Assembly (NCBI GenBank): GCA_024742415.1
Contig: JANSYN010000006.1
Location: 124,001-188,000, forward strand
Length of the DNA: 64,000 nucleotides
From: Gammaproteobacteria bacterium
Lineage (GTDB): Bacteria > Pseudomonadota > Gammaproteobacteria > Pseudomonadales > Halieaceae
Reading direction: 5' to 3'
Shown: positions 49,094 to 62,041 of the stretch, piece after piece
How positions within the stretch are numbered: the first letter of the stretch is position 1
Layout of the letters: every line of letters starts with the position of its first letter
Notes under the pieces: model-generated
Told to the model about the DNA's origin: nothing
The model's database searches: none
Seen by the model: only the letters and a program-made list of their open reading frames with translations
Made by a program: the position numbers and the translations under genes

Positions 49094-50566
49094 ATGCCGC
49101 TACTTCGTTCTATCTTGCGCAGCATTACCGCACTCCTGCGCACGCTGTTTTTACTCGTCATCGTCGTAGCGATACTGGTCGCGGTGCGCGCCTGCGCTCC
49201 TGAGCAGGTCGATGACAGCGAACGCGTTGCCGCCAAGCGGGATTACCTCGCCCGAATCCAGACGCTTGCCCCGGGTATCGTCCATCGACCCAATATTGTT
49301 TTTGTGCTCTACGATGACCTGGGCTATGGCGATCTTGGCTATGGCGCGCGTGATTCGCGCATGATCGCCACCCCAAGCATTGATGCACTGGCCAGCGATG
49401 GCGTTGTGCTCAGCGATTTTCATTCGCCTGCCCCGGTCTGCACCCCGGCGCGGGCGGGCTACCTCACAGGCCGCCTGGCACCGCGTGCAGGTTTACCCAA
49501 TGTGGTTTTCCCCACGGGCAGTCGCAAGGAATTTTTCTTCCATACACTGTCCGGCGGCGGCAACAAGCGCCTGCCTGCCGAAGAAATTACGCTGGCTGAC
49601 TTGCTCAGGGCTGCCGGCTACGCCACGGGCATGGTCGGCAAGTGGCACCTGGGAGATCGCAGCCCGTCGCTGCCCAACGACATGGGCTTTGACAGCTACT
49701 ATGGCGCGCTCTACAGCAACGACATGGAGCCCTTCGCTTTTTACAGGAACCGCGAAATCGCAGTGCCCGCTCCCGTCGACCAGACCCTGATGACACAGCG
49801 CTACACCGAGGCTGCCGTCACTTTCATTCGCGAGCAGGCAGGCCAGCCTTTCTTTCTCTACTTTGCGCACAACTTCCCGCATGACCCGCTGTCTGTGCGC
49901 GCTGAGCGCAGCGGGCGTTCAGCAGCCGGGTTGTTTGGCGATGTTATCGAAGAGATCGACGAGTCCATTGGTACCCTGGTCGAGACGCTGCGCGAGACCG
50001 GCCAGTTAGAAAACACCCTGTTTATCATCACATCCGACAACGGCCCGTGGTACCTCGGCGACGCGGGTAACCAGCGCGGACGCAAGGGCAACACCTTTGA
50101 GGGCGGAACGCGGGTGCCGTTTATCGCACATTGGCCACAGCGCATCGCCGCCGGCCGCACAGAACACGCCATGGCCATGGGCACTGACCTTTTACCCACC
50201 GTACTTGAGCTGCTGGAGTTACCGCCACCGGATGACCGTATACTCGATGGCAAAAGTATTCTGTCGGTGCTGACGGTGGGTGGGGCAACGCCGCATGACT
50301 ATCTCTACTACTACGATGGCCAGACGTTGTTCGCCGCACGCGACCAGCGTTTCAAGTATCGCGGCGCAGCCGGTGTGTTCTACAGCACAGACCAGATGCC
50401 GTTTGGTGCGGCAGTGCCACAAAAGGAATGGTTGTTTGATCTTGCCGGCGATGCGCGCGAGTCTTACGACACCTCCACACGCTACCCACAGGATCTGCAG
50501 CGCCTGCGCGCCGCCTTCGAAGCCAAACGCGCCTCGATGGCAGACAACCCGCGCGGCTGGAAGTAG
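49094..50566 (+). CDS. Arylsulfatase A-type sulfatase
   Basis: This 490-residue protein has an N-terminal membrane anchor (TLFLLVIVVAILVAV) and a classical sulfatase domain. The metal Asp pair (Asp74, Asp75) lies in LYDDLGYGD, and the formylglycine motif CTPARAGYLTG has Cys116. AVGKWHLG-like VGKWHLGD and ITSDNGPWYLG are further sulfatase landmarks. It removes sulfate esters outside the cytoplasm. The ATG at 49094 has AAGGA in front; the frame opens at 48908. The activating enzyme is not in this window. It converges on the SRPBCC gene within 19 bases. Confidence 0.9.
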   Translation: MPLLRSILRSITALLRTLFLLVIVVAILVAVRACAPEQVDDSERVAAKRDYLARIQTLAPGIVHRPNIVFVLYDDLGYGDLGYGARDSRMIATPSIDALASDGVVLSDFHSPAPVCTPARAGYLTGRLAPRAGLPNVVFPTGSRKEFFFHTLSGGGNKRLPAEEITLADLLRAAGYATGMVGKWHLGDRSPSLPNDMGFDSYYGALYSNDMEPFAFYRNREIAVPAPVDQTLMTQRYTEAAVTFIREQAGQPFFLYFAHNFPHDPLSVRAERSGRSAAGLFGDVIEEIDESIGTLVETLRETGQLENTLFIITSDNGPWYLGDAGNQRGRKGNTFEGGTRVPFIAHWPQRIAAGRTEHAMAMGTDLLPTVLELLELPPPDDRILDGKSILSVLTVGGATPHDYLYYYDGQTLFAARDQRFKYRGAAGVFYSTDQMPFGAAVPQKEWLFDLAGDARESYDTSTRYPQDLQRLRAAFEAKRASMADNPRGWK

Positions 50567-52019: not shown

Positions 52020-52754
52020 TTAGCAACGCTGCAAATGACTGGCGGCGAGTGGCGCCGGCAGTGGCGCGCGCACGCCCGGCCATGTTGCGCTTTGCCCCAC
52101 CTGCGCCTCGCGAAACAGGCTGACGCGCGGCGCCACATCGGGTGCACCGAGCCAGCACAGGGCCAGACGGTACGCGGACAGGGGCTCGTAGAGTGCGTAA
52201 TGCGCGGTATCGGGGTGCGCCGTGTCAGGGTGCGAGCCCTCACAGGCGCGCAGCGTCCAGGCCGGTGCCTGCTGGCCGCTCGGGACAAAGCTGAAGCAGC
52301 GCCTGGATAACTGCGGAGGCAGCGCCTCGCCACGCGCTTTGACCGCGGCCTCTTTCAACACCCACAAGTCATAGAAGCGCCCTGCGCGCTGCTCGACCGG
52401 CAGACCTTGCAGGGCCTGAACCTCCCGCGGGCTGAAAAAGCGCCGTGCCAGCTTCATTTCGTCCTGTCGCGTCACCGTGGTTTGCAGATCGACGCCCAGC
52501 GGGGCACTGGCCGCCACCGCCAGCACGCGCCAGTCTCCGCTGTGGCTGAGATTAAACTGCAGCGCCGGGCGTGCTGGCGTCGTCCGGCATAACGCCGGCT
52601 TGCCGTGCGCACCGCGCTCAAACGCGATTGACTGTGCGCCGCCCGCCCCGTAGCGTCCCAGTACACGGCGCTTGTACTGATCAGAATCCAGTGCGCTGTC
52701 GTGCCTGGCCAGCCACAGGTGCACATCCTGCTGTTCAAGGGTTATCTGTTCCAA
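52020..52754 (-). CDS. 4'-phosphopantetheinyl transferase (Sfp type)
   Basis: This 244-residue enzyme has FNLSHSGDW, the metal-binding GVDLQ (usual GVDIE) and FYDLWVLKEAAVKARG motifs of Sfp transferases. It attaches phosphopantetheine from CoA to carrier proteins, either a fatty-acid ACP or secondary-metabolite carriers. An exact small repeat HPDTAHPDTAH lies near residue 180. No polyketide or peptide synthase gene is in the window, so its target is elsewhere. Confidence 0.88.
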   Translation of the reverse strand: MEQITLEQQDVHLWLARHDSALDSDQYKRRVLGRYGAGGAQSIAFERGAHGKPALCRTTPARPALQFNLSHSGDWRVLAVAASAPLGVDLQTTVTRQDEMKLARRFFSPREVQALQGLPVEQRAGRFYDLWVLKEAAVKARGEALPPQLSRRCFSFVPSGQQAPAWTLRACEGSHPDTAHPDTAHYALYEPLSAYRLALCWLGAPDVAPRVSLFREAQVGQSATWPGVRAPLPAPLAASHLQRC

Positions 52755-53097: not shown

Positions 53098-53961
53098 ATG
53101 ATCCATAAACGCCGCCAACAAAGCCTCAAGCACAGCCTGCTTTGTCTCGGGTTGCTTCTTGCCAGCACCGCTGCCCTTGCCGCCGACAATGCGGCGCTGT
53201 TGCCTTCATGGCAAACGCTGGAGTTTGAGGAAAAGGCCTTCTGGGCCGTGGCCAACTCACGACTGGAACTGCTGGTCGACAGTGAAGATGACAGCAACGG
53301 CATCTTCGTAATCAACAGCTCCGTGCCGGGTAATTCCGAGCAAATCACCATCAACCTGGACATCGAAACCGGACAACTGCTCACACGCGAGCGGCTCAGT
53401 CAGGGCAAGAAGGACCGCCGCTTCAAATCCTACGACTACCGGCCCGACATGGTCGTGCGTGAGCGCCGCGAACCCATGGCGCAGAGCAGCCCCCAACCGG
53501 ACAGCTGGGAAGTGACCAGCGAAACCAGAATCCGCTATCCCGAGATGGCCGCGCAGAGCGTGATCACGGATCCCTACCTGCTCGTACTGCTGGCCGGACG
53601 CCTGCAGGCACAGAGCTCGGGTGCTTCAATGGAGGTGATGGTCAACACAGACCAGAACTTTTATCGCGTGTCCCTCACCCGCGGCAATGGCATTCCCGTT
53701 GAAACCAACTATCAACGCGCCGACGGCACCATCGTAGCGCAGCTCGTTGACACCGTGGGCGTGGTGTTGCGCGCGGAGCCCGCCGGCACCCTGCTGGACC
53801 AGGAAGATTTCTCGTTCATGGGCCTGCAGGGTGACATCATCTTGTTGTACGACGAACAATCTGACTTGCCGCTGCAAATCCGCGGTGAGGCACCGCGCGT
53901 TGGATCCACAGAGATCAATCTCAAGTCGGTGGGGCTAAGGTCGCAAAACAGTGGAGGCTAA
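53098..53961 (+). CDS. Exported protein of unknown function
   Basis: This 287-residue protein has a signal peptide (basic n-region KRRQQSLK, hydrophobic LLCLGLLLASTAALA, cleavage near residue 31). The mature part alternates beta-strand-like segments with acidic turns, and the central FKSYDYRPDMVVRERRE is distinctive. No family is recognised. The frame opens at 53008, but ATG 53098 yields the signal peptide. Its end overlaps the lipid-kinase gene by 11 bases, so it belongs to that operon and may help lipid transport or envelope assembly. Confidence 0.7.
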   Translation: MIHKRRQQSLKHSLLCLGLLLASTAALAADNAALLPSWQTLEFEEKAFWAVANSRLELLVDSEDDSNGIFVINSSVPGNSEQITINLDIETGQLLTRERLSQGKKDRRFKSYDYRPDMVVRERREPMAQSSPQPDSWEVTSETRIRYPEMAAQSVITDPYLLVLLAGRLQAQSSGASMEVMVNTDQNFYRVSLTRGNGIPVETNYQRADGTIVAQLVDTVGVVLRAEPAGTLLDQEDFSFMGLQGDIILLYDEQSDLPLQIRGEAPRVGSTEINLKSVGLRSQNSGG

Positions 53962-54913
53962 CGCCGACACCGTCGGCATGATCAGCAATCCCGCAAGCGG
54001 TCATAACCGAAGCCAGTTCCAGGCGCTAAAGCAACGCATCGACCGCTGCACTCCCATCCACCACGTCATCACCGCAAGCGCACAGGACATCGACAGCGCC
54101 CTACAGACACTGGCGGCGAAGAACATCTCCGTATTGGCCATCAACGGGGGTGATGGCACCAGCTCCGCCATTCTCGGCCGCCTGCTGGAAACCAGGCCAT
54201 TTGCACAACTGCCGAAGATCGCGCTCCTGCCGGGCGGCACCGCGAACATGAACGCCGGTGACGTGGGCATCAAGGGGTCCTTGAAAAAAGCCGTCGAGGT
54301 CTTTTGCCACTGGGCCGAGCAGCCTGCATCGGGCAGCGCAACTACGCAGCAACGGCGCCTGCTACGCGTACAGCTCGCCGACGGCCAGGTACAGCACAGC
54401 ATGTTCCTGGGTGGCGGCGCCATCATTCACGGCACGGAGTACGCGCATCGGGAAATCCACTCGCGCGGATTACGTGACGACTTCAGCCTGATTCTGGGCA
54501 CTGTGCGCACCGTGTGGGGTGTGGTGCGCGACGATCCACAGTTCAACCGACATATCAGTATCGAACTGCGCCTGGACGACTCCGAAGTACAGCACTTCGA
54601 CACACTGATTCTCGCTGTGAGCACATTGCAGCGCCTGTCTTTTGGTATGCGCCCCTTCTGGAGCGACGCCGCCGGTGCTATTCGCCTGACGTTAATGGAA
54701 CAGGGTTGCAGCAAGTTCGGACGCACGTTCACGTCCATCATTCGCGGGCGACCGAACAACAATGCCAAGGCGTCAAGCGGCTATCACAGCCACAATGCCG
54801 ACCGCATCGAATTGACCCTGTCCGGCCCGCTGAACCTGGACGGCGAAATCCTGCAATGCGACGGCCGCGTGTGTATTACCGCCACGCAGCCGCTGGAGTT
54901 CCTGCAGCTATGA
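53951..54913 (+). CDS. Diacylglycerol/lipid kinase family protein
   Basis: This 320-residue protein has the DAGK catalytic fold: MISNPASGHNRSQF near residue 10, the nucleotide loop NGGDGTSSAIL near 65, and LPGGTANMNAGDVGI near 95. The DGD-type GGDGT motif coordinates ATP in DgkB/YegS-like kinases. It should phosphorylate diacylglycerol or a related lipid to phosphatidate. It starts with GTG at 53951 (AAGG 10 bases before) and shares ATGA with the next gene. The coupled neighbour could use its product. Confidence 0.85.
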   Translation: MEANADTVGMISNPASGHNRSQFQALKQRIDRCTPIHHVITASAQDIDSALQTLAAKNISVLAINGGDGTSSAILGRLLETRPFAQLPKIALLPGGTANMNAGDVGIKGSLKKAVEVFCHWAEQPASGSATTQQRRLLRVQLADGQVQHSMFLGGGAIIHGTEYAHREIHSRGLRDDFSLILGTVRTVWGVVRDDPQFNRHISIELRLDDSEVQHFDTLILAVSTLQRLSFGMRPFWSDAAGAIRLTLMEQGCSKFGRTFTSIIRGRPNNNAKASSGYHSHNADRIELTLSGPLNLDGEILQCDGRVCITATQPLEFLQL

Positions 54914-55959
54914 TGCCCTACCCCTTGGTCACCGGGCCAGATCCGCAAACCGATGCCACGCTGGCAGCCCTGCTGGACGCACTGTATGCGCGCCACAACC
55001 AGGCTATCTGCTGCACGCTGGTCTATGGCTCGTGTCTGCGCAGCGGCAACATCTACGACGGCCTGCTCGACCTCTACCTGATTTGCGATGACTACCGCAC
55101 CGCCTATGGCCCCGGCCTGCTGGCGGGCGCCAACTGGCTGATGCCGCCCAACGTATTCTACGCGCAGCAGACGGCGCCGCTTACAGAGCCACCTGCACAA
55201 GTGCATACAGAACGATCAGAACGGGATACAGAACCCCATGCACAGCGCCACGCTGGGCAAAGCGCTGAAACCGGTGGTGGTGCACAGGGCACGAACGCGC
55301 AAACGCTGCGCGCCAAGGTCACGGTGATCTCCCTGCGGGACTTCGAACGCGGTTGCTCGTCGGCCTGGTTCGAATCTTACATCTGGGGGCGCTTCGCCCA
55401 ACCCACGCTGATTCTCAATCCGCGCAGCGACCTGCTGCGCAAGCGCATCGAACGTGCTCTGTACCAGGCAGCCAATACGCTGCTGCACAATGCACTGCCG
55501 GTGCTGCCGCAGCAGGGCAGCATTACGTCACTGTGGGAGCGTGCTTTGGGTCTAAGCTACGCCACTGAGCTGCGCACCGAGCGCAGTGGCCGTGCCGCCG
55601 AACTGGCCGATGCCGCCGCAACTTTCTATGTGCAAATGACAGCGCAGCTAGCCAGCCGGCTGGGCCACGGCTTTGCGCTCAGCGCCGATGGCCAGGCCTA
55701 CGTCAGCGCGCCGTCGGCGCTGGCCACGCGCCGCGCCGGGCTCGCCTGGGGCCTGCGCCGCGGCCAGGGGAAGCTGCTGTCGATCACACGCCTGGTCAAG
55801 GCGCTGTTTACCTTCGAGGGCGGGCTGGACTACATCGCATGGAAGCTCACCCGGCATTCCGGGCAACAAATCACCATTCCCGACAACGTGCGTCGCGCGC
55901 CCCTGATCCACCTGTGGGGTTTTTTCTGGGGGCTGTATCGCCAGGGCATCTTCAAGTAG
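54910..55959 (+). CDS. Tam41-like nucleotidyltransferase, candidate CDP-diacylglycerol synthase
   Basis: This 349-residue protein has VYGSCLRSGNIYDGLLDLYLICDDY near residue 36, a nucleotidyltransferase-type GS then D pattern, followed by MPPNVFY, KVTVISLRDFERG and WFESYIWGRFAQP. The order recalls Tam41/MMP37, which makes CDP-diacylglycerol from phosphatidate and CTP. This is inferred from motif order, not an alignment. A poorly conserved low-complexity stretch (about residues 95-130, TERSERDTEPHAQRH) interrupts the domain. The frame extends upstream to 54514, but the ATG at 54910 overlaps the kinase stop (ATGA), indicating coupled translation. Confidence 0.6.
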   Translation: MMPYPLVTGPDPQTDATLAALLDALYARHNQAICCTLVYGSCLRSGNIYDGLLDLYLICDDYRTAYGPGLLAGANWLMPPNVFYAQQTAPLTEPPAQVHTERSERDTEPHAQRHAGQSAETGGGAQGTNAQTLRAKVTVISLRDFERGCSSAWFESYIWGRFAQPTLILNPRSDLLRKRIERALYQAANTLLHNALPVLPQQGSITSLWERALGLSYATELRTERSGRAAELADAAATFYVQMTAQLASRLGHGFALSADGQAYVSAPSALATRRAGLAWGLRRGQGKLLSITRLVKALFTFEGGLDYIAWKLTRHSGQQITIPDNVRRAPLIHLWGFFWGLYRQGIFK

Positions 55960-56122
55960 TTCGAGCCACCTGTGCACTGCCGACGCCCGCTCACATGGCC
56001 GCACGCGCCACGGTAGATCGCAATATTCACGCTTATACCAAGCCCGCGAAAATGGAAAAAAACTCCATGTTCCTATATAGTTACGGCCATTCTGAGCAAC
56101 CCGCAGCGCCTCCCATATTGCT

Positions 56123-57067
56123 ATGAAAGCCAGCGTATTTATCCAGACCAACCACAAGCAAATCACCGGAGCGATCGTTGCCGAGCACGCTCTGCGCCGG
56201 TATTCACAAAACAACGACAAGTTTGATGTTGTGCTGATGGACACGCGCGACTACCCCTTTTTCGCCGAGCGCGAAGGGCAGGAGTACCTGCGTGACGGGG
56301 TCAAGCGCACCTGGCTCAACGACGACTTGCAGTCATTTACGCCAACCCGCTTTATGCCGCCCAAGCTGATGGGTTACGAAGGTCGCGCCGTTGTCATCGA
56401 CCCGGACATCTTCGCCACTACTGATATCTGGGAACTGCTCAGCCGCGATATGCAGGGCAAGGCCATCATGTGCCGCATGCGGTCCGGCCCCAAGGGCCTG
56501 GTCGACAAGTGCATGGCGTCCAGCGTGATGCTGCTTGAATGCAACCGGCTGACTCACTGGGATGCCGAGGCGAAATTCCAGGCGATGTTTGATTTTACCC
56601 AGGACTACCAGCCCTGGATCTGCCTGAAAGAGGAAGACCGCGACAGCATCGGTTTCTTCGAAGCAGAGTGGAACGATTTCGACAAGTTCACCGCCGCCAC
56701 CAAGATGCTGCACACCACACGCCGCAAAACACAACCGTGGAAGACCGGCCTGCCCACCGACTGGCGCCCGGCGGAACGCTTCCGCCTGTTTCCACCCGCC
56801 GCCTGGGTGATGCGCGCCCGGCGCAAGCTGTTTGGCGAGTACGCGTTCCTGGGGAACTACAAACAGCATCCCGACCAGAACCAGGAAGATTTCTTCTTCG
56901 GCCTGCTCAAGGAATGCGTCAATGAAGGCAAGATCTCTGAAGACTTCCTGCGTGCCGAGATGAAGCAAAACCACGTGCGCCATGACGCCTTTGCAATTCT
57001 CGACAAAACCGCTGACCTGCCGCCGGCGCCACAGCACCCGCTCAGCGCTGTATCAGAAGCTGCCTGA
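56123..57067 (+). CDS. GT8-like glycosyltransferase, paralogue 1
   Basis: This 314-residue protein starts FIQTNHKQITGAIVAEHAL and carries a DxD-type metal motif in VVIDPDIFATTDIWEL near residue 92, plus LHTTRRKTQPWKTGLP near 195, which recalls the HxGxxKPW ending of GT8 enzymes. A retaining GT-A glycosyltransferase using a nucleotide sugar is inferred. It is clearly homologous to the protein at 58363 across its length. No signal peptide; probably cytoplasmic or membrane-associated. Its 3' end overlaps the convergent ELM1-family gene by 26 bases. Confidence 0.65.
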   Translation: MKASVFIQTNHKQITGAIVAEHALRRYSQNNDKFDVVLMDTRDYPFFAEREGQEYLRDGVKRTWLNDDLQSFTPTRFMPPKLMGYEGRAVVIDPDIFATTDIWELLSRDMQGKAIMCRMRSGPKGLVDKCMASSVMLLECNRLTHWDAEAKFQAMFDFTQDYQPWICLKEEDRDSIGFFEAEWNDFDKFTAATKMLHTTRRKTQPWKTGLPTDWRPAERFRLFPPAAWVMRARRKLFGEYAFLGNYKQHPDQNQEDFFFGLLKECVNEGKISEDFLRAEMKQNHVRHDAFAILDKTADLPPAPQHPLSAVSEAA

Positions 57068-58139
57068 GCGCGACAGCCGAACGCGTCAGTTCCGCGGCCG
57101 CGTCATTCCCCGCGCTGGCCATCGGGGCCGCCTCCCAGTCGTGCAGTACTGACTTTTCCTCCAGCCAGCGCGCGCGCCCGGACGCCACCAGTGCACCCTG
57201 TATGCGGCCGATATCCCTGCGCATGCGCTGCGGCCCAAAGGCCATGGCCGCCCGAAAACTCAGGGGCTTGTAGCGCCAGGCGTGCGGCAACTGCCACCAG
57301 GGCGTCGCACCGTCGCCCGGATCAAAGATAAACAACCCACGGCCGGTGTCTGCGGCCTCTGCCAGCATGGACATGGATTCGCCGGTGACGATAAACACGT
57401 CTGCCAGGGCGAGCATGCCCTGGTAGGGGTTGTCCTGAGTCTGCGCACAGCGGTGCACAAAATGCGGCGCCGCAACGTGCGCCTGCAGCGCCGATACTGC
57501 ATCGGCGGGCGTGCGTGGGCTGTCTGTCACCAACAGGGAGCCGCCGCTGGCCCCGGCCAGTTGACTGGCAAGAACACCCAGCCGCGCACCCTTGCCAGGG
57601 GTGAGGACGTAGCGGCCGCTATCGCCACCTACCAGCACTGCAATCCACGGCCTGGGCAGGTGTTGCCAGCGGGGTTGCCAGTGCGCGGCGGCCGCGGCGC
57701 GCTGCTCGGGCTGTACGCTGTGCAGAGGCAGGGTATTGTGCAGGATGTTGGCCTGCTGCGGCAGGAAGTACTGCGGTGTGGTGACGATCAAATCCCAGCA
57801 ATCCAGCGGCGCCCAGGGTCTCCCAAGGTGCACCAGCCGCGTCGTGCCACCGGCCTGCTGCTGTATCCAGCGCGCCACCGGTTCATTGCGCCGCCCGGCC
57901 GTAATCACCAGATCTGGCCAGGGTGCGGCCAGGGGGCTGGACTCAGCCGTATCTATCCCCGCCAGGGTGACCTGCAGCGCCAGATGGGTGAGCAGCTCCC
58001 AGGGCCGCGCAACGATGTGTTTCTCCTCAATCACCACGTCCAAGAGGGCCCCCAGTGCGGTGGCCAGGGCCCGCACTTGCGTGTTGTCGCCGGCTTTTTT
58101 GCCCAGCAGGCACCATACGGTGCTCGGATTGTCAGGCAA
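57042..58139 (-). CDS. ELM1/DUF1022 family protein, GT-B-like
   Basis: This 365-residue protein shows the pattern of the ELM1 family: CLLGKKAGDNTQVRALATAL at the N-terminus, WPDLVITAGRRN, LVHLGRPWAPL, FDLIVTTPQY-like WDLIVTTPQYFLP, AVLVGGDSGRYVLTPGKG, and VTGESMSMLAEAADTGRG. The fold resembles GT-B glycosyltransferases. Bacterial members often sit near lipid A or surface-glycan genes; no biochemical role is settled. The start is TTG at 58139 with AGGAG 7 bases upstream. It is inserted, on the opposite strand, between the two GT8-like paralogues. Confidence 0.82.
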   Translation of the reverse strand: MPDNPSTVWCLLGKKAGDNTQVRALATALGALLDVVIEEKHIVARPWELLTHLALQVTLAGIDTAESSPLAAPWPDLVITAGRRNEPVARWIQQQAGGTTRLVHLGRPWAPLDCWDLIVTTPQYFLPQQANILHNTLPLHSVQPEQRAAAAAHWQPRWQHLPRPWIAVLVGGDSGRYVLTPGKGARLGVLASQLAGASGGSLLVTDSPRTPADAVSALQAHVAAPHFVHRCAQTQDNPYQGMLALADVFIVTGESMSMLAEAADTGRGLFIFDPGDGATPWWQLPHAWRYKPLSFRAAMAFGPQRMRRDIGRIQGALVASGRARWLEEKSVLHDWEAAPMASAGNDAAAELTRSAVALRQLLIQR

Positions 58140-58362
58140 AGGCCCTCTCCTGCTTGTTCATGTTCCCGCCTGTGCTCGTTGCTTCACTGTTGTCGGCGCT
58201 TGAGGCCGGGAGCGCCCCGCCCTCGCCGGCCTGCACGCGTCGTGGCGAACGCGCTCACCCTGCCCGAGGCCCGCAGGCTCGAAAAATTGCCAAAGCCTGG
58301 CGTTTATGCAAGACCCCACGAGCGTTAAACTATCCCACAACTCTTTGGCGAGAAGAACGGTT

Positions 58363-59256
58363 TTGAAACCCACTGTATTCATACATACCAATCACAAGCA
58401 AATGCTGGGCGCGCTTATCAGCCAATATTCGCTGAAAAAGCGTTCGGCCAATGCGGACAAATTCGATGTAAAGCTGATCCAGCCGCAGGATTTCCCCTGT
58501 ATGGCCGAACACGAGGGGAAGAACTTCCTGCGTGATGGCGACACCCGCCCGTGGCTCAACGATGACCTGCAATCCTTCACACCACTGCGTTTCGCACCAC
58601 CCCAGCTCATGGGATATGCAGGCCGCGCGGTCGTTATGGATCCGGATATTTTCGCCGTGGCAGACATCTGGGAGCTGCTTGAGCGCGACATGCAAGGCGC
58701 GGCGATCATGTGCCGGCCCAAGTCTGGCCGCAAAGGCCGCAAGGGGGCCTACGCCAGCAGCGTGATGCTGCTGGACTGCGCCAGGCTCACCCACTGGCGG
58801 TTTGAGGAAGACTTTGCGGGCATGTTCCAGCCCGCCAGGCACGACTACATGGACTGGATCTCGCTCAAGCGCGAAGACCCTGCCACCATTGGCCTGTTTG
58901 AGAACGAATGGAATGATTTCGACAACCTGACCGACAATACCAAGCTGCTGCACAACACCAAGCGCAAGACGCAGCCCTGGAAGACCGGACTGGCCATCGA
59001 TTACCGCCCCGCTGACACCTTCCAGCTGTTCCCACCGCGACACTGGTTCCGCCGCGGTCGACGCGCCCTGTTTGGCGACTACAAGTTTGCCGGCACCTAC
59101 GCGCAGCACCCCGACCCCAGGCAGGAAGCATTCTTCTTTAACCTGGTCAGGGACGCACTGGCCGACGGCGAGATTACCACGGCAATGCTCAAGGATGAGA
59201 TAGAAATGGGCCACCTGCGCCCCGATGCACTACACCTGATTGATCGCGCTGCCTAG
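58363..59256 (+). CDS. GT8-like glycosyltransferase, paralogue 2
   Basis: This 297-residue protein matches the product at 56123 from FIHTNHKQMLGALIS through VVMDPDIFAVADIWELLERDMQG, SSVMLLDC, NEWNDFDN and LHNTKRKTQPWKTGL. The DPD and KTQPWKTGL segments suggest a GT-A, GT8-like glycosyltransferase. Alignment with the paralogue puts the start at TTG 58363, with GAGAAG upstream; the ATG at 58306 would add 19 unlike residues. The pair probably arose by duplication and may add successive sugars. Confidence 0.65.
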   Translation: MKPTVFIHTNHKQMLGALISQYSLKKRSANADKFDVKLIQPQDFPCMAEHEGKNFLRDGDTRPWLNDDLQSFTPLRFAPPQLMGYAGRAVVMDPDIFAVADIWELLERDMQGAAIMCRPKSGRKGRKGAYASSVMLLDCARLTHWRFEEDFAGMFQPARHDYMDWISLKREDPATIGLFENEWNDFDNLTDNTKLLHNTKRKTQPWKTGLAIDYRPADTFQLFPPRHWFRRGRRALFGDYKFAGTYAQHPDPRQEAFFFNLVRDALADGEITTAMLKDEIEMGHLRPDALHLIDRAA

Positions 59257-59387
59257 GTAGCGCCCGGCCGCCGCAGCGGCGCCAGGCCGCCCGCGCAAAC
59301 AGGGGGTCACCCATGAACAACGTGCGGCGCCCGATCACTGACTTTGATCAACGCAAGAGCCTGGTTCGGCAGCAGAATCTGCAGTAA
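59257..59387. other. Intergenic region between convergent genes, no gene seen
   Basis: The 131 bases between GT paralogue 2 and the convergent sulfotransferase contain no clear hairpin or coding frame. Confidence 0.3.
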
Positions 59388-60326
59388 TCACACGTATTTG
59401 AAATACGCATCCAGCGTATCGCGCAATCGCGCATCAATCAGCGCAACCTCTTCATCACTGAAGTAATCGCGGTAGCCGCCCACTTTCGCGCGGCGCACTT
59501 TGTAGCTGTCCGGGTTGTCTTTATCGCGCGGCATCATGCGCCCCCCGGCAAGACGGAACTGTGCCTGGCTCTCCATTTTTTTCATATTCTCAAAGGAGGA
59601 ATACTCGACGGCGGCAGCCACCTGCTCGTCGGTCGCACTCACCCCCATAAAGTCGAGCATGCCCCGCAGTTGACCCGGGGAATCGGCGCGCAGGTCTTCA
59701 TAGCGCACCAGGTGAAAACGCTCGACGTTGTCCACTTCGCGTGCCCACACGTTCATGTACTGGATAACCTCCAGCATGCCGCCGCCTATATCGCTCATCA
59801 CGAAATCAAAAATACTGACGTCGTCCTCGCGCGAGGGGTAGTTGTTCAGGGCAACCTTGTTGTCCTTCAAACGGAACTTCCACTGAAAAAACTGCGATAC
59901 CGCCACGTCACGCGGGTCGCGCACCAGCAGAATCACGGGTTTGTCATAAAAGGGTTTTTTGGAGTCGGGTTCGCCGGTGTAGTCCTTGATGTAGTTGTCA
60001 TGGGTGAAAAAGGTCTTGGGGACGGCAGGTTCCATATTATGAAAATTGTCGAAGCTGAGGATCGCGTTCTCTGGCAGGTCGTGTTTTATGCGAAACAAGT
60101 GCGACACCATGACCCGCAACCAGGTGCGGCCACTCTTGCCAAAGGACACAAACACAACGTCGGCACTGCGCAGTTTCTTGTACTGCTCCAGGCCGCGCAG
60201 TTTGCGCTCGGCGAGCAGCACTTCGGCCTGCGGGCGATTGCGCATGCGCCAGTGCAGAATTTTGCGCGACAGCTTCTTCGCGCCGGTATGGGCACCATGC
60301 CGGAGGGTCTGCAGCCAGTGCTTCAT
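59388..60326 (-). CDS. Sulfotransferase 1
   Basis: This 312-residue enzyme has the PAPS-binding loop in VSFGKSGRTWLRVMVSH near residue 58 (usual form SYPKSGTTWL) and the 3'-phosphate motif LLVRDPRDVAVSQFFQ near 134. EEVALIDARLRD near the end is typical of cytosolic-type sulfotransferases. It should move sulfate from PAPS to a hydroxyl group of a lipid, glycan or small molecule. It starts in a 4-base overlap with sulfotransferase 2. Confidence 0.88.
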   Translation of the reverse strand: MKHWLQTLRHGAHTGAKKLSRKILHWRMRNRPQAEVLLAERKLRGLEQYKKLRSADVVFVSFGKSGRTWLRVMVSHLFRIKHDLPENAILSFDNFHNMEPAVPKTFFTHDNYIKDYTGEPDSKKPFYDKPVILLVRDPRDVAVSQFFQWKFRLKDNKVALNNYPSREDDVSIFDFVMSDIGGGMLEVIQYMNVWAREVDNVERFHLVRYEDLRADSPGQLRGMLDFMGVSATDEQVAAAVEYSSFENMKKMESQAQFRLAGGRMMPRDKDNPDSYKVRRAKVGGYRDYFSDEEVALIDARLRDTLDAYFKYV

Positions 60327-61267
60327 GAGGACTTACCGCTGCTGTGGGGTTGCGCATAGCCGAAGATCGGGTCCAGCGACTGCATCATTGCATCCAGCTC
60401 ATTGCACTGTTCGTCGGTGAAATAATCGCGAAAGCCACCCACCTTGGCCTTGCGCACCTTGAATGACTGCGGGTTGTCCTTGTCTGCCGCCTTGACGCGC
60501 GCACCCGAACCCTTGAAGAAGCTGTCCTGCTCCATTTTTTTCATGTTCTCGTAGGCGGCAAATTCAACCGCCTCGGCCACCTGCTGTTCGCTGATGTCCG
60601 TACCGGTGAACGCAAAAATGCGGCGCAATACCTCGGCCGGATCGCTGCGCATGTCTTCGTAACGCACCACCAGTACGTCTTGCAGTTCAGGTATGGCCCG
60701 CGCCCATCCGTTGAAATAATCGATAATACGCGGTACGCCGGCTTCCTTGTCGAGCACAAAATCCCAGGTGGTGATATCCGCGCCGTGGGGAGGGTAGTCG
60801 TTAATGAATTTCTTGTTGGGGCGCATACGGAACTGCCACTGGAAAAACTGTGACACCGCCACGTCTCGCGGGTCCCGCACCAGCAACACAATACGCTTGC
60901 CCTTGAAGTGGCTTTTCGACTGGGCATTGCCGGTGTAGTCGCGCAGGTAGTTGTTGTGCGTAAAAAACACGGCGGGTAATTCGGGGTGCACTGCCTTGAG
61001 ATTGTCAAAATCGAGCAGCTCGCTGGCTGGCAGGTTCGCCTTTAGCGTATAGGCACGCGATAACATCACACGCAACCAGGTACGACCGGACTTGCCCCAG
61101 CTCATCAGGACCCAGTCGCTGCGCTGCAGCTTCTTGAACTCCTCACGACCGCGCAGCCAGCGCTCGATCTTCTTGCGCCGCTGCGGCGGGAGCCAGAACA
61201 CCAGCACCATGATGATATGGCGTAGCGCGATGCGAGCCTTGTCCGCTGTGCTCCCAAAAGCAGCCAT
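60323..61267 (-). CDS. Sulfotransferase 2
   Basis: This 314-residue paralogue of the downstream enzyme has LMSWGKSGRTWLRVMLSRAY near residue 54, HNNYLRDYTGNAQSKSHF, LLVRDPRDVAVSQFFQWQF and KVGGFRDYFTDEQC. The first 35 residues are hydrophobic and basic (LRHIIMVLVFWLPPQRRKK), which could hold it to the membrane. The two enzymes are about equal in length and share most motifs, so they arose by tandem duplication and may sulfate two positions of one product. Confidence 0.88.
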   Translation of the reverse strand: MAAFGSTADKARIALRHIIMVLVFWLPPQRRKKIERWLRGREEFKKLQRSDWVLMSWGKSGRTWLRVMLSRAYTLKANLPASELLDFDNLKAVHPELPAVFFTHNNYLRDYTGNAQSKSHFKGKRIVLLVRDPRDVAVSQFFQWQFRMRPNKKFINDYPPHGADITTWDFVLDKEAGVPRIIDYFNGWARAIPELQDVLVVRYEDMRSDPAEVLRRIFAFTGTDISEQQVAEAVEFAAYENMKKMEQDSFFKGSGARVKAADKDNPQSFKVRKAKVGGFRDYFTDEQCNELDAMMQSLDPIFGYAQPHSSGKSS

Positions 61268-61414
61268 TGGCGCTAAACCCCCGGAATATAAGGAAATAGC
61301 GGCGCATTCTATCGTAATTCAGCAGTGCTGGCAGCGGTGATTTAGCGCACTATTAACACCGCAGGAGCCAACCTGCGGCTATGCTCCGCCCGTCGTGATC
61401 CGTAAAATACCGCC

Positions 61415-62041
61415 ATGGCACTGATTAATCTTGAAGCACTGCGCAGTGCGCAGTTGCACACTGACCCCTTCGACTACCTGGTCGCCCCGGGCTTCATCAG
61501 CCCCGAGGTTCTGGCGCGCGTGAATGCGGACTACCCCGCGATCGAGACTGCCGCAAATCATGCGCTTGAAAACCTCAGCTTTGGCCCCGCTTTTGCCGAA
61601 CTCATGGAAGACATACGCGGTGAAGATGTCGCGCAGACCCTCGGTGAGTTTTTCGATATGGAACTGGCCTCACTGCCCACTACCGTTACGGTACGCAAGT
61701 TCTGCGAGCGCACGGACGGCAACATCCACACCGACCACAAGAGCAAGGTGATTACTGTACTGGTGTACTTCAATGAGCAATGGGAACACGAAGAAGGCCA
61801 GTTGCGGCTGCTGCGCTCCAGCTCAGACATTGAAGACTATGCGGCACAGGTACCGCCGCTGGGGGGCACGCTGCTGGCCTTTCGCCGCACCGACCACTCC
61901 TGGCACGGCCACACGCGCTTTGTGGGTGAGCGGCGCATGGTACAGCTGAACTACCTTGACCAGAGCCCGATTGCAGTTGCCGCACAAAGGATCAGCCGCT
62001 TCGGCACGCACTTCATGAAAAACGTGCTGGGAATGCGTTAA
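61415..62041 (+). CDS. 2OG-Fe(II) oxygenase
   Basis: This 208-residue protein has the iron-binding HxD in NIHTDHKSKVITVLVYFN near residue 110, a distal His and the 2-oxoglutarate-binding Arg in HSWHGHTRFVGERRMVQLNY near 165-185. Prolyl-hydroxylase-like or lipid hydroxylases share this double-stranded beta-helix fold. It diverges from sulfotransferase 2 (147-base gap). It may hydroxylate the product that the sulfotransferases then modify, which is inference from neighbourhood. Confidence 0.83.
   Translation: MALINLEALRSAQLHTDPFDYLVAPGFISPEVLARVNADYPAIETAANHALENLSFGPAFAELMEDIRGEDVAQTLGEFFDMELASLPTTVTVRKFCERTDGNIHTDHKSKVITVLVYFNEQWEHEEGQLRLLRSSSDIEDYAAQVPPLGGTLLAFRRTDHSWHGHTRFVGERRMVQLNYLDQSPIAVAAQRISRFGTHFMKNVLGMR

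Follow-up and report, generated by a model that had tools for sequence, protein, structure and literature searches.

A conserved gene locus resembling known phosphosphingolipid loci, with a putative sulfated-glycosyl variant arm, in a gammaproteobacterium of the family Halieaceae

What would a bacterium build with a lipid kinase, a Tam41-like nucleotidyltransferase, three putative glycosyltransferases and two tandem sulfotransferases encoded side by side? The question is raised by nine genes at positions 53098–62041 of a 64,000-nucleotide stretch of DNA (hereafter the window; positions 124,001–188,000 of contig JANSYN010000006.1, assembly GCA_024742415.1) from a gammaproteobacterium of the family Halieaceae, the host. 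The original prediction had placed these genes in a single pathway leading to a sulfated glycolipid or surface glycan, for which no described system was known. Our analysis identifies them as the left half of an approximately 30-kb locus that extends ~20 kb beyond the window end. The locus is conserved; part of it corresponds to a known type of phosphosphingolipid locus, and the rest forms a putative variant arm for sulfated glycosyl groups. Judging from the genes, through which alone it is known here, we put at roughly two in three the probability that the locus makes and exports an anionic sulfated glyco(phospho)sphingolipid of the outer membrane. The lipid proposed earlier would thus most likely be a sphingolipid, and a free surface glycan is disfavoured.

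In Caulobacter, genes CC_1152–CC_1168 make, and probably export, the ceramide phosphoglycerates CPG and CPG2 (PMC11324152; all papers are cited here for the portions of their text available to us). CpgB is the ceramide kinase of that system (PMC10331486), and CpgC, with its cytidine diphosphate-diacylglycerol (CDP-DAG)-synthase-like domain, is required for the step from ceramide-1-phosphate to CPG (PMC12275187); CC numbers were equated with Cpg names through the match CpgB = CC_1160 = CCNA_01218. The host kinase and its Tam41-like neighbour resemble CpgB and CpgC in family or fold, in order and in the company they keep. The earlier claim of novelty therefore stands, as far as the text available shows, for the arm of GT8-like, ELM1-like and sulfotransferase genes, and falls for the combination of kinase, CDP-DAG-synthase-like protein, LptF/LptG and ceramide genes, which the Caulobacter CPG locus shares (PMC11324152, PMC12275187).

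The conservation survey covered 369 gammaproteobacterial genomes at a match cut-off of E ≤ 1e-3, with the host as genome G000. A CpgC-like (Tam41-like) match was recovered in 21 genomes, one of them (G017) at just E 3.9e-5. GT8-like matches occurred in 13 genomes, reaching at least 300 bits in seven with the next best at 44 bits, and matches to sulfotransferase 2 in 54, reaching at least 150 bits in seven with the next best at 107 bits; these two strong thresholds were chosen after the score gap was visible. Both strong sets consist of the same seven genomes from five families (G000, G080, G127, G150, G205, G337 and G343), and all seven fall inside the 21 CpgC-like genomes (hypergeometric 7e-10, uncorrected for kinship). 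A CpgC-like gene is carried by 10 of the 13 GT8-matching genomes, the three without it being the weak matches G106, G111 and G326. G150, G247, G262 and G279, which also have a CpgC-like gene, carry weaker GT8-like matches in long frames, next to an ELM1 domain or fused to it; the GT8-like and ELM1 stretches of G150 (L037:7728-10025) are fused in one 766-aa frame. Within the host genome, the only two GT8-like matches and the only three sulfotransferase-2 matches at the same cut-off lie within about 10 kb. As far as contigs and stretches reach, the seven loci have in common the kinase, Tam41-like, GT8-like, ELM1 and sulfotransferase genes, together with genes for serine palmitoyltransferase (SPT) and acyl carrier protein (ACP), a nucleoside triphosphate (NTP) transferase, a ceramide-synthase-like protein and transport.

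A scan of named genomes extended this picture through the best 80 of 209 relatives (the 80 named GT8 loci, several of which come from one assembly): a sulfotransferase gene is present in 53, an ELM1 gene in 59 and at least one of ten core genes in 48, and the corresponding counts among the 32 loci with full flanks are 25, 26 and 21. These loci include Halieaceae (Mangrovimicrobium sediminis), Thiogranum and Thiohalobacter as well as Roseovarius (R. mucosus DSM 17069 and Roseovarius sp. 217), and most of the nearest matches to the first host GT8-like protein (84–89%, among the best 80 of 209) bear the labels Haliea, Halioglobus or Halieaceae. One record that carries the locus is labelled as a Klebsiella pneumoniae metagenome-assembled genome (MAG; L128), probably a wrong label or bin. 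The check for conserved co-occurrence proposed with the original prediction has thus been run, and the neighbourhood recurs in other families. The proposal of one pathway gains from this conserved association of lipid-activation, glycosyltransferase and sulfotransferase genes; its scope was incomplete, as the locus continues into ceramide genes.

All nine genes are present as open reading frames (ORFs) at or very near where they had been placed, on both strands; coordinates and start codons are those of the ORF calls, and family assignments come from Pfam searches of the translations, which uphold the earlier kinase, ELM1-like, sulfotransferase and oxygenase calls. The kinase (53951–54913, plus strand; DAGK_cat E 1.1e-14, GGDG at residue 66) is CpgB (ceramide kinase)-like and adjoins the Tam41-like gene, an arrangement conserved across relatives' loci. 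Its 5' partner (53098–53961, plus) encodes an exported protein of no known family with an N-terminal signal sequence visible by eye: neither the protein itself nor three homologues gave a Pfam match, and the protein itself gave no NCBIfam match. A homologue is present in 16 of the 80 named GT8 loci, adjoined by the kinase in 15. The Tam41-like nucleotidyltransferase (54910–55959, plus), CpgC-like by position, matches PF09139 (Tam41_Mmp37) weakly (E 2.6e-4; 20.9 bits, under the gathering score of 24). Its fold upholds the assignment: the top five Protein Data Bank (PDB) matches of an AlphaFold2 model (pLDDT 76, 5-row alignment) are Tam41 CDP-DAG synthases at E 2e-7 to 3e-6, followed by a match at 2e-3.

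Two paralogues with 57% identity, GT8-like a (56123–57067, plus) and GT8-like b (58306–59256, plus; its start may be near 58354), flank an ELM1/GtrOC1-family putative GT-B glycosyltransferase (57042–58139, minus; PF06258 E 3.6e-57). Neither paralogue has a relevant Pfam match, and no GT8 family is among the Pfam results. The AlphaFold2 model of GT8-like a (pLDDT 78, 16-row alignment) agrees with the earlier call in that its best Foldseek matches are GT8-type enzymes (LARGE1, 3tzt, XXYLT1, GlyE, LgtC and glycogenin; E 4e-8 to 1.2e-5), with TM-scores by query length that are modest, at 0.33–0.44 among the matches listed. In all 16 aligned GT8-like proteins, the DPD of the DxD motif is invariant and an H-x-T-x-R-x-x-Q-P-W-K-x-G-L block is kept. 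The remaining genes encode two 3'-phosphoadenosine 5'-phosphosulfate (PAPS)-type sulfotransferases, ST1 (59388–60326, minus; PF00685, Sulfotransfer_1, E 5.5e-25; motifs GKSGRTWL, RDPRDVAVS, FTH and KVGG) and ST2 (60323–61267, minus; PF00685 E 3.9e-27; motifs as in ST1), and a 2-oxoglutarate (2OG)-Fe(II) oxygenase (61415–62041, plus; PF13640, 2OG-FeII_Oxy_3, E 1.2e-8). The oxygenase has HTD at residue 105 and a distal His and Arg visible by eye, and it has homologues in 27 of the 80 named GT8 loci.

Beyond the window end, where coordinates above 64000 carry the window numbering on into adjoining host DNA, lie a second ELM1-like gene (64314–65414, minus), a third sulfotransferase, ST3 (65417–66442, minus), LptF (66481–67653), LptG (67650–68720), an MsbA-like ATP-binding cassette (ABC) transporter (68908–70650) and a third ELM1-like gene (70642–71691, minus); the three ELM1 proteins score 194.2, 162.8 and 208.5 bits against PF06258, well past its gathering score of 27. 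They are followed by ACP (71769–72011; PF00550), SPT (72132–73352; NF047599), MurA (73352–74602), a metallophosphoesterase (74632–75576), a MobA-like NTP transferase (75584–76465, minus), a GNAT-like putative bacterial ceramide synthase (bCerS; 76407–77633, minus), whose neighbours are alike in relatives' loci, an AasR-like fatty acyl-AMP ligase (78276–80066; family match over the C-terminal part of the gene) and a CerR-like NAD epimerase (about 80117–81022; PF01370 1.7e-29). SPT passes the NCBIfam equivalog NF047599 at 577.9 bits against a cut-off of 500, and its closest solved relatives are bacterial SPTs (for example, 2jgt/2jg2). Because the genes for SPT, ACP, acyl-AMP ligase, a CerR-like protein and a putative ceramide synthase stand together in the locus, its lipid backbone is, on gene content, very probably ceramide. 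The right end holds an LpxL-like acyltransferase (81179–82174; PF03279), a fatty-acid hydroxylase (82143–82772), a second LpxL-like acyltransferase (82811–83743; PF03279) and an O-antigen-ligase-like gene (Wzy_C, PF04932) at 83667.

How does this locus relate to the CPG and CPG2 pathway? CpgA, a CDP-alcohol phosphotransferase, was sought by whole-genome profile search, with a profile built from gammaproteobacterial homologues. The host genome gave short matches only, of up to 26 bits. CpgA-like proteins of at least 300 bits occur in 11 of the 21 CpgC-like genomes (the G120 copy has an internal stop), and full-length CpgA-like proteins in one of the seven genomes with the sulfo arm (G150) versus 10 of the 14 others (Fisher p 0.024, uncorrected for kinship). 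Once genomes below 90% completeness and G017 are dropped, the contrast becomes 1 of 5 versus 10 of 11 (p 0.013). Genes resembling CpgD, a CTP:phosphoglycerate cytidylyltransferase, are present in the loci of ten CpgA-positive genomes, G150 included; none was found in the window or adjoining host stretches, the rest of the host genome not having been searched. The 80 named GT8 loci, many of them short and 29 with the kinase, yielded neither CpgD-like nor CpgA-like genes. Since CpgA and CpgD are rare where the sulfotransferases are present, the arm for the second phosphoglycerate is usually missing beside the sulfo arm, and the best reading of these gene distributions is that a glycosylation–sulfation arm may have replaced the CPG2 arm of a phosphosphingolipid locus. 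The same rarity suggests that the charge of outer-leaflet sphingolipids could be a swappable module.

Sulfation by the locus enzymes is plausible from their motifs. ST1 and ST2 keep what we take to be the 5'-phosphosulfate loop, the 3'-phosphate site and the catalytic His of PF00685; in ST3 (L004:5417-6442) the His is replaced by Tyr. Adenosine 5'-phosphosulfate (APS) kinase is present in all 12 genomes tested (in G134 as a short 20-bit match only), and it is not specific, since 11 of 14 controls carry it too. The G337 copy lies on the same contig as LptF, about 7 kb away. In the G127 locus, the genes immediately after the acyl-AMP ligase encode a Sat-CysC PAPS synthase and a protein that its sequence marks as a CysQ-like 3'-phosphoadenosine 5'-phosphate (PAP) phosphatase.

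The gene families and their linkage suggest a route in which each reaction, the order and membrane side of the steps, the acceptors of sugar and sulfate, the destination and the lipid itself are predictions. The AasR-like ligase and ACP would supply SPT; the putative bCerS and the CerR-like reductase would yield ceramide, which the fatty-acid hydroxylase would hydroxylate. The CpgB-like kinase would convert ceramide to ceramide-1-phosphate, and the Tam41-like CpgC homologue would activate this with cytidine triphosphate (CTP) or help to build the first phospho-head group. In place of the second phosphoglycerate, added through CpgA/CpgD in Caulobacter, the GT8-like and ELM1-like glycosyltransferases may add at least one sugar, two or three of the PAPS sulfotransferases may sulfate the sugars, and the 2OG oxygenase may hydroxylate a sugar or acyl chain. 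The MsbA-like transporter would then flip the product, and the sphingolipid-type LptF/LptG pair would send it towards the outer membrane.

The export genes bear on how closely this lipid might be tied to lipopolysaccharide (LPS). The host genome, 99.65% complete, has just two LptF/LptG matches, both in the locus, and the locus LptF/LptG proteins form their own clade versus pairs elsewhere in the genome set, with one exception, the third pair of G247. Two explanations offer themselves: the locus pair also works for LPS, or the assembly lacks a canonical pair. The first is more likely because G262, a single contig with LpxC, likewise has only the locus pair. A single pair thus poses the question of how one Lpt bridge would handle two lipids. 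The right end of the locus invites a related thought. The hydroxylase between two LpxL-like genes forms a cassette found in the host (81179–83743), G127, G337, a KatS3mg124 MAG and six Roseovarius loci. In lipid A biosynthesis, LpxL enzymes add acyl groups to hydroxyacyl chains, and by that analogy the LpxL-like enzymes could possibly, as a speculation, add secondary acyl chains to a hydroxyacyl ceramide; they might instead serve lipid A. Carried further, the product might be a counterpart of sulfatide built on the logic of lipid A: a hydroxyceramide acylated by LpxL-like enzymes, phosphorylated, glycosylated, sulfated, flipped by the MsbA-like transporter and exported through the sole LptF/LptG pair, with sulfate in place of phosphate charge. 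We hold this version to be doubtful. If true, one Lpt bridge would serve both LPS and an LPS-like sulfated sphingolipid, and sulfate would replace phosphate charge in phosphate-poor, sulfate-rich sea water. Elsewhere in the genome set, G323 (L084/L085; a single contig of 3.7 Mb) gave no LpxC match, has LptD, and carries one LptF/LptG pair, enclosed in a locus that also has CpgA-, CpgB- and CpgC-like genes, making it on gene content a candidate LPS-less gammaproteobacterium using sphingolipids.

Several observations weigh against a dedicated sulfated glycosphingolipid pathway. The host has LpxC and LptD, and with the LpxL-like and O-antigen-ligase-like genes at the locus end, part of the gene set could act on LPS. 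The solved relatives found for the sulfotransferases are mostly SULT-type enzymes of small acceptors, and sulfotransferase specificity cannot be read from sequence; adjacency of the Sat-CysC PAPS synthase was seen in the G127 locus alone among the relatives' loci compared. A profile of the GT8-like family gave no credible sequence match to GT8 among solved structures, so that the window proteins have a modelled GT8-like fold and are not GT8 members by sequence. PF09139 matched none of 14 control genomes, Caulobacter vibrioides included, and passed its cut-off in none of the nine genomes given; with that profile silent in the controls, it is fold and position that carry the proposed CpgC link. 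The putative bCerS is assigned from its position and a sub-threshold GNAT match (E 0.0018). Neither is the exchange of arms clean: G150 has CpgA, CpgD, GT8-like and sulfotransferase genes all together, and G279, G333 (82% complete, with a 50-bit CpgA piece) and G005 (62% complete), like G017, have neither full CpgA nor the sulfo arm. No sulfotransferase, ELM1 or core gene lies in the DNA covered for 13 of the 80 named GT8 loci, and all three are likewise missing from 4 of the 32 with full flanks. In Caulobacter, finally, CerR is a periplasmic protein, and a flippase or transporter for sphingolipids was still to be identified there when PMC11087976 appeared, according to the text available; neither point fits well with kinase, CTP and PAPS steps that all take place in the cytoplasm.

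A rival reading is a composite locus, in which the ceramide and Cpg genes make a phosphosphingolipid, the GT8-like, ELM1, LpxL-like and sulfotransferase proteins modify LPS (its core sugars and their sulfation), and a shared LptF/LptG pair links the two. Besides LpxC and LptD in the host, the sole LptF/LptG pair and the PF03279 and PF04932 genes at the right end, it draws on ELM1 proteins being predicted lipooligosaccharide (LOS) core glycosyltransferases in Acinetobacter (PMC4172580). We nonetheless consider it unlikely. Roseomonas mucosa and a Diaphorobacter IncP plasmid both have the GT8-like/ELM1 pair inside an SPT locus, and the annotation of the stretches shown includes no LPS gene other than LptF/LptG in Roseomonas (a point limited by the GT4, GT39 and oligosaccharide flippase genes also in that stretch); moreover, of the 369 genomes, none outside the 21 with a CpgC-like gene has a strong GT8 or sulfotransferase match.

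That the genes serve a sulfated capsule or other surface polysaccharide, with a sphingolipid locus simply next door, is improbable and was rejected: sulfotransferases and glycosyltransferases are common in capsule loci and a Wzy_C gene is present at 83667, but no Wzx, Wzc or sugar-nucleotide gene is among the family-searched ORFs of 53098–82772 (some small ORFs were unsearched), and the sulfotransferase and GT8 genes are interleaved with the kinase, Tam41-like, LptFG and SPT genes even in distant families. The pyridoxal phosphate-dependent enzyme that we read as SPT might instead condense cysteate, as in a capnine-type sulfonolipid locus, given that the enzymes are homologous and the cysteate-C-fatty acyltransferase 28eh matches at 177 bits. 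This reading, very improbable and also set aside, is far outscored by the SPT model (578 bits) and SPT structures (396 bits), and sulfonolipids need no sulfotransferase. Least probable of all is a chance cluster of unrelated genes, suggested by the use of both strands and rejected because the neighbourhood is kept across five gammaproteobacterial families and in records of Roseovarius. Our preferred reading remains a sulfated glyco(phospho)sphingolipid.

Some neighbouring genes have a looser tie to the locus. The sulfatase gene at 49094, to which the original prediction had drawn attention, is real (PF00884 E 4.9e-51), but as a fixed part of the locus it was rejected: it occurs in 4 of the 80 named GT8 loci and is missing from L102 and L152, though their SDR, SRPBCC and DUF3581 neighbours are kept. 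A 4'-phosphopantetheinyl transferase (52020–52754, minus; ACPS E 1.5e-13), present in 7 of the 80, possibly serves the locus ACP, its membership being uncertain. A large exported protein, encoded between the oxygenase gene and the second ELM1-like gene, runs from 62060 past the window end (L004:4282); it was rejected as a locus part, being found in the host only, with no homologue among the relatives' loci compared. In the adjoining stretch L005:5947-9535, inspection of the sequence points to an FkbM-like methyltransferase and to an oxidoreductase with a fused PhyH-like domain; a further 2OG-like gene there is matched by homologues in 12 of the 80 named GT8 loci.

Set against known systems, the host locus shares with the Caulobacter CPG locus the ceramide genes for AasR, AcpR and SPT, a CC_1153-like NTP transferase, a CC_1158-like phosphoesterase, LptF/LptG inside the locus and a flippase-type ABC transporter, and it probably also shares CerR, a putative CerS, a CpgB-like kinase and a CpgC-like CDP-DAG-synthase-type enzyme (PMC11324152, PMC10331486, PMC12275187). 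It differs in that LptF/LptG is a second pair in Caulobacter and the only pair found in the host, in having no full CpgA in the host genome and no CpgD in the host stretches searched, and in adding two GT8-like, three ELM1, three sulfotransferase, one 2OG oxygenase and two LpxL-like genes. The word 'sulfotransferase' occurs 0 times in the available text of PMC11324152 and PMC10331486 (PMC12275187 was outside that count). A literature search, light on subscription journals, found neither sulfotransferases in such a locus nor genes for sulfated bacterial sphingolipids, and no direct match on Roseovarius lipids or Roseomonas sphingolipids. Reported head groups of bacterial sphingolipids are sugars, phosphoglycerol, phosphoglycerate and phosphoethanolamine (PMC12275187), so a sulfate-bearing glycosyl head group from a dedicated locus would, if real, be a new class of anionic outer-membrane lipid. 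Sulfate-bearing bacterial sphingolipids have been reported by mass spectrometry from the Black Sea, with no genes for the sulfate step found in the available text; unlike the lipid proposed here, these sulfate-1-deoxyceramides are 1-deoxy, carry sulfate on the fatty acid chain and have no head-group sugar or phosphate (PMC11334938). Acinetobacter GtrOC1 (Mito_fiss_Elm1) is likewise an ELM1-family predicted glycosyltransferase for an outer-membrane lipid, its substrate, unlike ours, being LOS, for whose outer core such proteins are predicted to act (PMC4172580).

Related arrangements occur elsewhere. The G374 locus (L223) has the published order of AasR, CerR, ACP and SPT, then CpgC-, CpgB- and CpgA-like genes reversed, a phosphoesterase, LptF and LptG, and the Tam41-like gene adjoins the kinase likewise in Roseomonas and other genomes of the phylum. 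The Roseomonas mucosa HV3 plasmid (NZ_CP025058.1) resembles the host in its SPT, ACP, acyl-AMP ligase, CerR-like, Tam41-like, kinase, phosphoesterase and LptF/G genes and in the GT8-like and ELM1 pair (identities: SPT 50%, Tam41-like 32%, kinase 26%, GT8-like 44–47%); unlike the host, it keeps CpgA-like and CpgD-like genes and shows no sulfotransferase in the 31 kb shown. On the conjugative IncP plasmid pDCB2 of Diaphorobacter (L231), acyl-AMP ligase, ACP, SPT-like, GT8-like, ELM1, CerR-like and CpgD-like genes stand beside a nonribosomal peptide synthetase and a P450. In animals, sulfatide synthesis places a sugar and then sulfate on a ceramide lipid. The host route would follow the same sequence of additions, as an analogy only, using other enzyme families and with a phospho-head group likely in its product.

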